Below, one piece after another: positions 41,308 through 57,505 of a stretch of DNA of 64,000 bases. This DNA comes from Pedobacter cryoconitis (GTDB lineage: Bacteria; Bacteroidota; Bacteroidia; Sphingobacteriales; Sphingobacteriaceae). The stretch's first letter is position 1, and every line of letters begins with the position of its first letter. Below the pieces are notes generated by a model. It was not told the origin of the DNA, did no database searches, and saw only the letters and a list, made by a program, of their open reading frames with translations. Position numbers and translations under genes: made by a program. The stretch is from assembly GCF_014200595.1 (NCBI RefSeq), contig NZ_JACHCG010000006.1, positions 248,001 to 312,000 on the forward strand, in the 5' to 3' direction.

Positions 41308-44300
41308 ATGAAATTAAGATTATTTAGTTCAGTTTTTTGTGCTCTGATATCAGGCTCCCTTACTCTTCAGGCTCAGGTGCCTCAGGATACTACATTATCT
41401 GTTTATAATAATCAGACAGAGATTACCGCTAAGAGCAGCGTGACACTCAAGTCTGGATTTTATATCCCAGCAGGAAAAAATGTGCGGATTTTTACTGCTG
41501 CCAGTTTTTTAAACTGGGCAAATTTGTCCAGTAAGCCAAGCAGTGACCAGAATTATATTTTGACCCGGGTATTTAAAAAGGAAGGGGTCAAAGATGATGC
41601 AACGGCTGCTTTAAATACTTACAAGACACATGAGGTAAACCAGACGGTACAGTATTTTGATGGGCTGGGGCGTCCGTTACAAACTGTAATTGTACAGGGG
41701 AGCCCGAAATTTGCCGATGTGGTACAACCGGTTGTCTACGATGCTTTTGGACGGGAGGTGGTTAAATACCAGCCTTATGCGGTTACCAGTAATGGAGGTG
41801 CTTATCGTACTGACGGGCCGACAGCAGCCAATGCTTTTTACAAAAATCCTACTACCGGTATTGCCTCTACCGACCACTCTTATGCAGTAACTGTTTTTGA
41901 ACCTTCTCCTTTGAACCGGGTTGTAGAGCAGGGAGCTTTTGGCACTTCGTGGCAGCCGGTCAGTGGCTCTGATGCCGGGCATACCCAGAAAATTGTATAC
42001 GGAACCAATGCGGATGAGGTCAAACTCTGGGCAGTGAGTGCAGATGGGGCTTCGGGCACAACCAACTATACTGCTGGAAAATTATATAAAACTACGGCTA
42101 AAGACGAAAACTGGAAAGCGGCTGATCTGAAAGCCGGTACCACTGATGAATATAAAGATTTTGAAGGCCGTGTGGTCTTGAAACGGATCTGGGAAAGTGA
42201 TACCCGGAGCCTGTCTACTTATTATGTTTATGATGACCTGGGCAATTTGCGTTATGTACTGCCTCCGGCAGTTAACGAAAATGGGCAGAGTGTGCTGAGT
42301 AGTTTTAAAGAATCAGATGCTGCCTTTCTTCAGTTTATTTATGGTTATCGTTATGATGGACGAAGTAGAGTGATCGAGAAGAAGATCCCGGGTAAAGGCT
42401 GGGAATATCTAATTTACAATAAGCTTGACCAGGTGGTGTTAACCCAGGATGCTAACCAGCGCTTGAATAGCTGGTGGGTATTTACCAAATATGATGCTTT
42501 TGGACGTGTGGTGAGTTCTGGTCCGTATGCCAATGCTGCTAAACGTGACGCTTTGCAGCTCACGGTAGATGGGCAAACTGTGCTGTGGGAGAATAAAATA
42601 ACCACTGATATTGGGTATGATAATTTGTCCTTTCCTCAAGGGGTAACCAGTTACTATGTAATCAATTACTATGATGATTATGGCTTTCCTGGCAATACTT
42701 TCGGGGAACCGGGCAGTAATCAGGTTGGCGCAGCACGTACGAAGTCTTTGTTGACAGGTAATAAAGTAAATGTACTGGGGACTACTAAAATGCTGCTTTC
42801 AGTTCATTATTATGATGCTGAAGGACGGGTAATCCAGACTAAGAGTCAGAACCATCTGGACGGGCAGGACATTATTGACAATACTTATAATTTTACAGGA
42901 GAACTGACCGCCAGTACAAGGAGTCATACCGGAAGCAGTACCGGGGTAGCAACCAGCATTGCCAACCGTTATTTCTATGACCACATGGGGCGCAAAATTG
43001 CCACATTGGAAAATATCAACGGACAGGGCGAGGTAGTACTGAGTAAACTGGATTATACCGAAACCGGGCAACTGGTTAACAAACAACTGCACAGTACAAA
43101 CAATGGCGGTTCTTATCTGCAACAAACTAGTTATGCTTACAATGAAAGAGGCTGGCTAAGCAAAAGCCTGAGCAATGAGTTCAATTTGCAGTTGAAATAT
43201 GAAGATGGATCACAGTGGAACGGGAATATTTCGGGTCAGGTTTGGGGAAGAGGCGCCGGGAAATTAGACCATACTTTTACCTATAGTTATGATAAACTGA
43301 ACAGGCTAACCGATGCGGTATCACCGGGACTGGGAGAAAGTATCAGTTATGATGTGGTGGGTAATATCAAGACGCTGACCAGGGATGGAAAAGTGAATAC
43401 CTATAGTGGATATACGGGTAACCAGCTGACTAAAATAACTGGCTTTACAACGAGCAGTTACGATTATGATGACAATGGTAATCTAAAAAAGGACAGTGAA
43501 AAGAATATCAACTTAACATACAATTACCTGAACCTGCCGGAGACGGTTACAGGAAGCCAGAACATCAGTTACACGTATGATGCATCAGGAAACAAGCTGA
43601 GAAAAAAGGTGGGTAATGTGGTTACTAATTATATTGGTGGTATCCAGCACAAGACCGACGGTACAATTGATATCATTACGACTGAGGAAGGTATGGCCAG
43701 GAATAACAACGGGACATACAGTTATGAATATATGCTGACGGATCATCTGGGAAATAACCGGGCAACATTTCACAATCTTCCGGGTGTGGGTATTGAAGTT
43801 ATGCAAAAGGATGATTATTTTGCATTTGGTTTAAGGAAAGAAGTACTGCGTGGATCGAATGATAACAAGTACCTTTACAATAAGAAAGAGTTACAGGAAG
43901 AGTTAGGGGAGTATGATTACGGGGCTAGGCTTTATGATCCAGTGATTGGACGGTTTACAACGGTAGACCCACTTGCTGAAACAAGCAGACGACACTCGCC
44001 TTATACATATGGTTTGAATAATCCGATCCGTTTTATTGATCCGGATGGAATGGAGGCCACGGATTGGGTTAAAGGGAAGAATGGTATATACTGGGATAAA
44101 AATGCGAACGATCAAAGTACTACTAAAGCTGGAGACACCTATTTAGGAAAGGATTTGACATTCACTTTTAATAGTTATATTAATGATACTTTTGATGGGC
44201 CAAATCCACCTTGGGGAGCAGCGGGAGATAAGTTGACGTCTACAATTAACCTAACTTCAAATGAAGATGCAGATGGGAATCTTACTTCAGTCGATGTAAA

Positions 44301-44733
44301 ATCATCTTATGAAGTTAGCAAAACCGGAGGGTTGGATATATTTAAAGGCCGTGATTATTTTCCCGGACTTGGAAAAGATCAAAATATGGGCATTAATATT
44401 ACTAATTCTAATGGTTTTAATGCAACGTTTGAACAGCATGCAAGTGTGCCTGGCCTTGAAGCAGCGGGATTAGCTTTATTGGGCTATAGCTCAGTAAATG
44501 TTGCACAAAAATTGACGCTTGGACTTTCTGGTAATAACCTTTCAGTTAGTGCTGCTACTGATGTCTTTCCGTCGGCAACCTTATCAGTTAATGGTAATCA
44601 ATTGTTTAAATATAACCAGCCTTCGTTTAAGGGAACGCATGGTAACGATTTGATAAATTTTGGTACACGAACTAGTGCTCCGAGTATAATTGGCAGGCCA
44701 GCGCCTAATTTTTATAATCGATATAAAAAATAA
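41308..44733 (+). CDS. Full-length RHS-repeat toxin whose tip is supplied by the mobile unit
   Basis: This is a 1141-residue exported protein with signal peptide MKLRLFSSVFCALISGSL then TLQAQ. A DUF6443-like part (QTVQYFDGLGRPLQTV) and YD repeats run to ELGEYDYGARLYDPVIGRF. Residues 1-869 are the resident shell. From Asp870 on (base 43915) the sequence belongs to the tandem 6389-bp unit. The tip after RFIDPDGMEATDW has no recognised motif. The immunity-like gene downstream is a membrane protein, hinting at a membrane target. The shell is visibly more GC-rich than the tip, as expected for a replaced tip. No DUF5977-type partner gene precedes it. Confidence 0.88.
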   Translation: MKLRLFSSVFCALISGSLTLQAQVPQDTTLSVYNNQTEITAKSSVTLKSGFYIPAGKNVRIFTAASFLNWANLSSKPSSDQNYILTRVFKKEGVKDDATAALNTYKTHEVNQTVQYFDGLGRPLQTVIVQGSPKFADVVQPVVYDAFGREVVKYQPYAVTSNGGAYRTDGPTAANAFYKNPTTGIASTDHSYAVTVFEPSPLNRVVEQGAFGTSWQPVSGSDAGHTQKIVYGTNADEVKLWAVSADGASGTTNYTAGKLYKTTAKDENWKAADLKAGTTDEYKDFEGRVVLKRIWESDTRSLSTYYVYDDLGNLRYVLPPAVNENGQSVLSSFKESDAAFLQFIYGYRYDGRSRVIEKKIPGKGWEYLIYNKLDQVVLTQDANQRLNSWWVFTKYDAFGRVVSSGPYANAAKRDALQLTVDGQTVLWENKITTDIGYDNLSFPQGVTSYYVINYYDDYGFPGNTFGEPGSNQVGAARTKSLLTGNKVNVLGTTKMLLSVHYYDAEGRVIQTKSQNHLDGQDIIDNTYNFTGELTASTRSHTGSSTGVATSIANRYFYDHMGRKIATLENINGQGEVVLSKLDYTETGQLVNKQLHSTNNGGSYLQQTSYAYNERGWLSKSLSNEFNLQLKYEDGSQWNGNISGQVWGRGAGKLDHTFTYSYDKLNRLTDAVSPGLGESISYDVVGNIKTLTRDGKVNTYSGYTGNQLTKITGFTTSSYDYDDNGNLKKDSEKNINLTYNYLNLPETVTGSQNISYTYDASGNKLRKKVGNVVTNYIGGIQHKTDGTIDIITTEEGMARNNNGTYSYEYMLTDHLGNNRATFHNLPGVGIEVMQKDDYFAFGLRKEVLRGSNDNKYLYNKKELQEELGEYDYGARLYDPVIGRFTTVDPLAETSRRHSPYTYGLNNPIRFIDPDGMEATDWVKGKNGIYWDKNANDQSTTKAGDTYLGKDLTFTFNSYINDTFDGPNPPWGAAGDKLTSTINLTSNEDADGNLTSVDVKSSYEVSKTGGLDIFKGRDYFPGLGKDQNMGINITNSNGFNATFEQHASVPGLEAAGLALLGYSSVNVAQKLTLGLSGNNLSVSAATDVFPSATLSVNGNQLFKYNQPSFKGTHGNDLINFGTRTSAPSIIGRPAPNFYNRYKK

Positions 44734-56692: not shown

Positions 56693-57505
56693 GATTACGG
56701 GGCAAGGTTTTATGATCCGGTAATAGGGCGTTTCAATACGATAGATCCGCTTTCTGAGAAGAGCAGACGGTTCTCTACGTATGTTTATGGGAATAATAAT
56801 CCGATCAGGTTTATTGATCCTGATGGAATGGAGGCAACGGATTGGTATCAATCTAAAGATAAGAAGACCGTAAAATGGTTTGAAGGTAGCGGTGAGCGAG
56901 AGGGATATGATCATAAAGGTCAGGCAGCCACAATTGAAAGTTCAGGCAAGAATGATGGTGTAATAAATTTAAACGCTGATGGAACAGCAACTAATGGCCA
57001 AACAGGTGAGTTTGCTTCTTATTCAACAAGTGGAGCAACAAGGATAGAAGATAAGTCATTTAGCATATTTAAATCGACTTTGTCAAGTAGTACCTTTGGT
57101 GCAGGACAAGCTTTAGATTTGGGGGGTAAATTAAACGAAGGAGTTGGAAATATTGCAGACGTAGGTGCGTGGGCAATAGGAGCGGGATTAAGTGATGGTA
57201 CTTCAGTAATGAATAGATCTAATGTTTTGGGGACTTTAAAAAGTGTAGGAACTGGAGTTGTTGTGGCTGGTACTTTTATCGAAGCGGGCAAGGCTTTGGT
57301 AGGTCATCAGACACCAGGAGAGGCGGCTATAAATATAGGGGCTGGATTTGCTGCCTTTAGAATTGGGGGGCTTCCAGGTATGGTTGTTGGGGCTCTTATA
57401 CAGTCGACTTTTAATGTCTCAGGCATTGAGAGTAAATATCCAAGAAACCCACTTTATAAGTATCCAGATAATACAAGAGTTGTAATGCCATATATTAAAA
57501 GATGA
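56687..57505 (+). CDS. Displaced RHS tip 2, glycine-rich membrane-type toxin
   Basis: This 272-residue frame opens at GTG 56687 with MLDYGARFYDPVIGRFNTID and IRFIDPDGMEATDW. From about residue 130 it is rich in Gly and Ala with long hydrophobic stretches (SVGTGVVVAGTFIEAGKAL, INIGAGFAAFRIGGLPGMVV), as in pore-forming or membrane-inserting tips. It lacks shell and signal. Joining base 43914 to 56693 would restore an in-frame RHS gene, so this was probably the resident tip before the element arrived. Confidence 0.75.
   Translation: MLDYGARFYDPVIGRFNTIDPLSEKSRRFSTYVYGNNNPIRFIDPDGMEATDWYQSKDKKTVKWFEGSGEREGYDHKGQAATIESSGKNDGVINLNADGTATNGQTGEFASYSTSGATRIEDKSFSIFKSTLSSSTFGAGQALDLGGKLNEGVGNIADVGAWAIGAGLSDGTSVMNRSNVLGTLKSVGTGVVVAGTFIEAGKALVGHQTPGEAAINIGAGFAAFRIGGLPGMVVGALIQSTFNVSGIESKYPRNPLYKYPDNTRVVMPYIKR

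Follow-up and report, generated by a model that had tools for sequence, protein, structure and literature searches.

The window analysed here is a stretch of 64,000 nucleotides of Pedobacter cryoconitis (contig NZ_JACHCG010000006.1, positions 248,001 to 312,000 of the forward strand; positions below are those of the window), and it contains a repeated unit seated inside an RHS gene, between the shell of that gene and its toxin tip. The gene (open reading frame (ORF) 41308-44733) and the features below lie on the plus strand unless stated otherwise. Its shell (41308-43914) has DUF6443 and RHS repeat matches, and the Rhs_assc_core domain spans the border to the unit, where the core GATTA (43915-43919, the putative attL located by core scans and border comparison) forms the first codons of the DYGAR motif. 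The unit then comprises, in order, a new tip in frame with the shell (43915-44733, without Pfam match), a small ORF (44737-45102), two XRE regulators on the minus strand (45285-45635, with an HTH_3 match, and 45656-46066, RstR-like, with an HTH_3 and a sub-cutoff RstR match), a P-loop ATPase (46155-47774), tyrosine recombinase 1 (47805-48677; Phage_integrase, 4e-38), tyrosine recombinase 2 (48661-49587; Phage_integrase) and a right end of 716 bp without evident gene (49588-50303), whose final bases are conserved up to the GATTA of the next DYGAR core. A Pfam scan of the unit returned two XRE proteins, two Phage_integrase proteins and one Walker A protein without Pfam match, in agreement with the gene content listed by a first-pass annotation of this DNA. 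The small ORF, which that annotation called immunity-like, indeed stands in the position of an immunity gene, but it matched no family.

Two such units follow each other head to tail (43915-50303 and 50304-56692) and are identical at all 6,389 bases (100%), in agreement with the 6,389-bp unit first described as running from the DYGAR codons to the same core. The 11-base core GATTACGGGGC occurs exactly at 43915, 50304 and 56693; with at most one mismatch, the window scan gave six matches against 0.55 expected, a number reached in 0 of 100 shuffles. The three sites stand as annotated, but the part repeated across elements is GATTA, and GGGGC is common RHS coding sequence. The shell ORF (41308), ORF 50298 and ORF 56687 all have the core in codon phase 0, so that the phases of shell and tips agree; judged by phase, removal of the units would join the shell to the tip at 56693 in frame, as had been proposed.

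Behind the second unit lies a displaced older tip (56693-57505), which has partial relatives in ORFs of 1172-1761 amino acids elsewhere and is followed by its likely immunity gene (57502-57888; Bfi1 immunity family, sub-cutoff, E 3.9e-7). A decayed right end of an older unit (57962-58313, 68% identical) directly precedes another older displaced tip with a DYGAR core (58316-59077), and these are followed by a decayed XRE part of an older unit (59622-60289, minus strand, 90% identical) and a further orphan tip with a DYGAR core (62862-63668). Rhs_assc_core is complete in the shell gene (model positions 1-76), and each orphan tip has only its second part (31-76). The shell with its attached tip is thus followed by dissociated tips, and each tip starts in the core (43915, 50304, 56693, 58316 and 62862); two more DYGAR cores, each preceded by right-end-like sequence, lie past the window end. 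The locus can be read as the trace of successive insertions, the youngest unit coming first.

The ATPase was found in 14 of 201 genomes of the family and in 19 of 395 genomes of the phylum (the window's own genome is counted in both), and the 29 named loci belong to Pedobacter, Mucilaginibacter, Sphingobacterium, Hufsiella, Arcticibacter, Parapedobacter and one metagenome-assembled genome. It had been set beforehand that the recombinase operons of other genomes should lie at RHS tips with fixed borders, and this is what the copies display. Of the 43 testable close copies, 42 have a DYGAR-type core at 1.35-2.6 kb upstream of the ATPase, and 21 of these 42 have at least 150 open codons upstream; three further copies, outside the 43, are cut by contig ends. 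On the right, 20 copies have a core no more than 1.6 kb past recombinase 2; two of these, in locus L053, have a more distant ATPase. Five copies have room on the right and no DYGAR frame there: four of them (L047 and L195-L197) have the same core in a long palindrome and one (L110) has none. Another five are short of room; one of these (L112) has the core in the same type of hairpin and the other four are contigs that stop at the core. The right borders thus fall into 20 DYGAR cores, five hairpins, four contig ends and one without a core, which supports the proposal that the DYGAR motif doubles as an attachment site. Each copy was counted once, after removal of second fetches of the same places (L103, L104, L117, L119, L123, L125 and L130); short first fetches (L001-L044), two weaker fragments (L060 and L072) and more distant loci (L056, L058, L059 and L131-L146) were also left out, L053 was used for the right border only, and L195-L197 entered through the hairpin search. 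The window's own genome has 26 DYGAR-pattern sites in 6.35 Mb, and of its 17 Phage_integrase matches, 10 are no more than 5 kb away from one of them (compared by eye). Nine of the ten were matched to the recombinase pair described here and the tenth lies on C8; the remaining seven are more than 90 kb from any DYGAR-pattern site or on contigs without one.

The core bases themselves bear on the position of the exchange. In genome G162, three copies identical over 5.8 kb are found in two RHS genes with different shells and in one intergenic palindrome. The intergenic copy has the core GATTACGGTGC, whereas the RHS copies have GATTACGGTGC on the left and GATTATGGCGC on the right, a difference that puts the exchange ahead of base six, in GATTA or directly beside it. 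Four whole contigs from four assemblies span GATTA to GATTA and are broken exactly there on both sides, as would be expected if several copies have different neighbours at that point. A short core is directly repeated at both ends of the element (GATTA here, 14 bp in E. coli relatives), and the last 70 bases of the right ends have a pattern in common across many genera.

The palindromes deserve separate mention. At L047, L195, L196, L197 and L112, intergenic hairpins with arms of about 70 bp are built around GATTAYGGYGC-AAA-GCRCCRTAATC; in four loci 63-69 of 70 arm positions are complementary, and the sequence varies by species while complementarity is kept. This pattern occurs in 8 of 149 genomes of the genus, always behind right-end-like sequence, and was not seen otherwise. 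An Rfam scan of four hairpin loci gave no match, and at flank-homologous loci the only large palindrome was a single unrelated one, in L198. The hairpin is perhaps a second landing pad, maybe in folded form.

Empty and occupied states of one locus are both available in E. coli, where a small circular record from Shigella has matches to its primase-recombinase part at 199 places in 55 of 5,426 genomes, all of these places chromosomal. The RHS locus of SCU-113, behind a VgrG gene and between ansP and pptA, consists of a shell with one tip, two primase-XerC units with ISEc1 copies, and a second tip followed by its small gene; an internal stop is annotated in both the RHS gene and one primase. This shell is joined directly to the downstream tip of SCU-113 in Ec-U10 and JNE151685, which represent the empty site (the JNE151685 annotation splits the RHS gene into two pieces); the shell stretch has matches in 226 E. 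coli genomes. Positions 1-8985 of the empty locus correspond to 2985-11968 of the occupied one (99.6% and 99.3% identity) and 8912-15212 to 28609-34912 (98.9%). The break is the 14-bp GACCCGATAGGGCT, at DPIGL codons, and the occupied locus has a copy of it on either side of 16.7 kb. Among the matches listed in the tip search (40 of 112 records), four records have the tip under an RHS core feature; three were examined, and the tip of MEI003 instead belongs to a partial second RHS gene. Together with the identical copies at three sites in G162, the empty and occupied pair speaks for insertion. Two circular records belong here as well: one from Shigella (8,758 bp, or 8.8 kb) aligns along one SCU-113 unit at 98.9%, and one from Lonsdalea (11,289 bp) has two RHS-type tips, a primase and XerC, with no shell; both are possible assembly collapses of a tandem array.

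Units of other classes sit between shell and tip as well, wherever the joint was worked out. Seventeen further genomes of the phylum outside the family had ATPase matches, and the stretches of 12 were examined. The joint is DYGAR in G341 and YYPFG, approximately 40 codons upstream of DYGAR, in G286, G536 (Flavobacterium flavigenum), G264 and G276; in G393 it lies in a non-RHS gene and the right end is signal-peptide-like. By eye, the DNA around both RHS joints (DYGAR and YYPFG) follows TAY-NNN-TWY-GG. In distant relatives, some of which have a primase-helicase for the ATPase, the joints are YYPFG, DPIGL (E. coli) or in contact-dependent growth inhibition (CDI)-type genes, and CDI or hemagglutinin-type genes precede the same gene order on plasmids of Paraburkholderia, Pseudomonas aeruginosa and Enterobacter. 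Twelve of the 27 plasmid records with a match were also examined. In seven of these the upstream gene is of toxin type or a large surface gene (RHS in two, FG-GAP, FHA-type, TpsA2, hemagglutinin-repeat and invasin-domain), with three small genes between it and the unit in the Providencia plasmid; two records are small circles without a shell gene, and the annotation of the Leptospira noguchii and Caballeronia records is too thin to judge. Plasmids of Aureispira and Aureibacter have the same gene order behind RHS genes, with tandem units that are 100% and 99.97% identical over the part compared. The twelfth record, a Leptospira kirschneri plasmid (L212), conforms to none of these; it has a CHC2 primase-helicase and two tyrosine recombinases beside ParA/ParB, possibly a plasmid relative of the element.

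Alignment separates the two recombinases. Recombinase 1 keeps R, K, HxxR, H and Y wherever the 37 aligned rows, the window included, cover them. In recombinase 2, inspected by eye, the first Arg position is not Arg, an Arg often being adjacent, and the His of HxxR is absent in nearly all rows, the window included; the second Arg (except in G393), GH and Tyr are mostly kept. Recombinase 2 probably acts as a partner and would itself have little or no activity. The ATPase has a Walker A motif, and in two of the four distant relatives scanned it is fused to a CHC2 zinc finger and a Toprim domain, as in a primase-helicase. A search by sequence for a solved structural relative of the ATPase gave none, and its AlphaFold model has a mean predicted local distance difference test (pLDDT) score of 71, with much of the ATPase core below 50. 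A search of a phage collection returned only two weak matches, both records of one archaeal virus.

On these grounds, we consider it very probable that the unit is a site-specific integrative element, inserted at the DYGAR codons by its two tyrosine recombinases, which would give the shell a new tip and push the old one downstream. The position and phase of the borders, the identity of the tandem units, the several sites in G162, the conserved right end and the empty and occupied sites of E. coli are direct observations; they present the end states and, in E. coli only, the start state, from which we infer the circular intermediate and the recombinases as agents. A circle with attP, [right end|new tip], would meet a chromosomal attB, [shell|old tip], and a crossover at the GATTA core would yield [shell|new tip] ... 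[right end|old tip]. Recombinase 1 would probably do the chemistry, with recombinase 2 as its partner; the ATPase or primase-helicase would probably aid copying or processing of the circle, the XRE proteins would probably repress the operon, and a promoter in the right end would probably maintain transcription of the displaced module, chiefly of its immunity gene. With insertion repeated at the shell, an array would build up with the newest tip first, and the carried new tip would presumably be a working toxin.

Homologous exchange is the published model for such loci (Jackson et al. 2009, PMC2935791), and tips could accordingly be swapped by RecA-type recombination between RHS cores, as in C-terminal displacement, with the recombinase genes as passengers; the tips do have approximately 150 bp of core in common, and a shell fragment precedes one orphan tip in the E. 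coli array. However, the stretch common to the breaks is 5-14 bp, too short for homologous recombination, the breaks fall on the same bases across genera, insertion has also occurred in intergenic palindromes with nothing but the core in common, and the recombinase genes lie inside the unit. We therefore regard this explanation as very improbable. Somewhat less remote, and still unlikely, is an ordinary integrative element that uses RHS genes as a safe site, its tip merely restoring the 3' end and the change of tip serving no purpose in itself. In its favour, integrative elements are known that reconstitute the 3' end of the gene they target; yet the ends carried here are different tips with small downstream genes of their own, older units have decayed while tips and immunity-like genes remain, and several classes occupy different joints, always between shell and tip where the joint was worked out. 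A narrower doubt concerns the tandem pair of the window, which could be an assembly artefact of a single insertion, as the assembly has 17 contigs and several of them end inside related units. Tandem units occur also in single-contig genomes and complete plasmids, and the borders are independent of the duplication; we hold an artefact to be unlikely.

Several results weigh against site-specific insertion as set out above. Locus L118, the sole miss on the left, has the ATPase and no RHS core, L110 has no right core, and the weaker fragments L060 and L072 have no core either. No empty orthologue was found for any Pedobacter or Mucilaginibacter copy in the searches made: in the genus of G162, neither the flank of the intergenic copy nor one displaced tip led to such a site, and the displaced tip of the window, with relatives in 13 of 145 genus genomes (its own included; several partial, inside long ORFs), gave no orthologous empty site in these 145 genomes. 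The E. coli pair consists of relatives with one recombinase, and the ATPase part of the Shigella copy is 29.9% identical to that of the window. Besides ISEc1 copies, the E. coli array contains a shell fragment of 400 bp ahead of one of its orphan tips, which implies that insertion sequence or homologous events have shaped it too. The circles may be collapsed arrays, and all E. coli places are chromosomal. In 6 of the 12 more distant phylum genomes examined no joint was worked out, and the Leptospira kirschneri homologue is a misfit, with no polymorphic-toxin gene annotated nearby. Finally, recombinase 2 has lost catalytic residues.

Comparison with known systems indicates what would set these units apart. 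Integrons grow by means of a tyrosine recombinase that places new modules first in an array, so that those already present shift back. The newest module likewise stands at the array head here, with older ones behind; unlike in integrons, there is no fixed platform integrase, the recombinases are encoded in every unit and insertion takes place within a coding frame, and the integron-integrase model gave only a sub-cutoff match. Some prophages and islands insert into a gene whose 3' end they then reconstitute, as e14 does in icd. The units resemble e14 in that the element supplies the 3' end of the target gene in frame, but e14-type elements restore the same function, whereas the replaced end here is a variable tip. 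In contrast to integrative conjugative elements, no relaxase or mating-pair genes were found in the seven ORFs of gene and unit scanned (small right-end ORFs excluded), and in contrast to Gamma-mobile-trio islands, the GmtY recombinase model scored 39.6 bits, far below its cutoff of 340.

Closest in outcome is Rhs C-terminal displacement, for which the available text of Jackson et al. (2009, PMC2935791) proposes homologous recombination with a circular intermediate. As in that system, the new tip adjoins the shell and old tips are pushed into a downstream array; unlike what is described in that text, the unit carries recombinases and breaks at cores of 5-14 bp, with no long core identity. Arrays of displaced modules are also known for type VI secretion system effectors of Vibrio, where the available text of Kirchberger et al. 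(2017, PMC5361080) likens them to integrons and reports no evidence for an integrase, while the units here encode recombinases. Tyrosine recombinases stand beside immunity genes, as they do here, in rAID orphan-immunity arrays (PMC12247911) and, as XerC/D, at a number of polyimmunity loci (Zhang et al. 2012, PMC3482391); as far as the available text of these papers goes, both are immunity arrays for which no insertion between shell and tip is described. An rAID array has one recombinase followed by orphan immunity genes, whereas the units here carry tips and two recombinases. Further related work is found under PMC6421346, PMC10210955, PMC8125069, PMC11278526 and PMC12711010.

The first-pass annotation held that a dedicated recombinase cassette for tip exchange is, to its knowledge, undescribed, and none was found in open PubMed Central titles and abstracts, a scope that leaves out most subscription papers and preprints. 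Swapping of RHS or CDI tips, with old tips kept in arrays, has so far been ascribed to homologous recombination involving a circle whose origin was not explained. An element with dedicated recombinases would account for that circle and for the fixed boundary, as well as for the array order and the transfer between shells with little common sequence, and would make the question of tip exchange testable with att-only DNA. More broadly, we lean slightly towards the proposal that a widespread superfamily of self-moving tip cassettes is the main engine diversifying polymorphic toxins in Bacteroidota and Proteobacteria. The DYGAR, YYPFG, DPIGL and CDI joints would be its attachment sites, the cassettes would travel as small replicating circles made by a primase-helicase with one or two tyrosine recombinases, and orphan tip arrays would be the insertion record, newest first.

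The fate of the displaced tip appears to differ among classes. The old tip had been described as parked behind a GTG start, which holds for the window and for Pedobacter aquatilis but not in general: among 16 other DYGAR-class junctions, 3 of them at other places in this genome, 15 lack an in-frame start before the core; general translation of parked DYGAR-class tips was therefore dropped. The parked tip of G276, of the YYPFG class, has in-frame ATGs before it, and that of G393 receives a complete N-terminus from the right end. At L133 and L134 of G393 (13790-14434 and 22328-23134), the non-RHS right end by eye gives the parked tip a signal-peptide-like N-terminal stretch. A promoter-like TTG-N19-TAACTTTA (50191-50220) faces the displaced tip in the window, its string or layout, considered without chance control, recurring in related right ends and before rRNA genes. 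The form TTG-N19-TAnCTTTA lies approximately 110 bases before the core in 10 of 16 junctions, and the looser layout TTG-N-TAnnTTT[A/G], again without chance control, precedes all six 16S genes inspected in three related genomes; 16S was not found in the window's own assembly. For the DYGAR class, we read these features as a displaced module that would be transcribed, with its putative immunity gene kept on and its tip mostly silent. No claim is made for an rRNA-like boxA, suspected in the right end at 13 of 16 junctions (GTTCTTTATA or GTTCTTTGAA): both rRNA leaders of G195 have GTTCTTTTAA 169 bases before 16S, but the other four of the six leaders have no such string within 1 kb.

Other features of the window were noted in passing. 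A second RHS gene (8619-12591), with its DYGAR core at 11382, is followed by a small gene and has no element. After the XRE remnant, the segment 60290-60739 is by eye tip-like, with a CxxC...H nuclease-like end and no DYGAR core, as if fused by deletion. The gene pair at 61376-62271, the second member of which is a DUF6036/DUF2204 nucleotidyltransferase, is possibly a toxin-antitoxin module.

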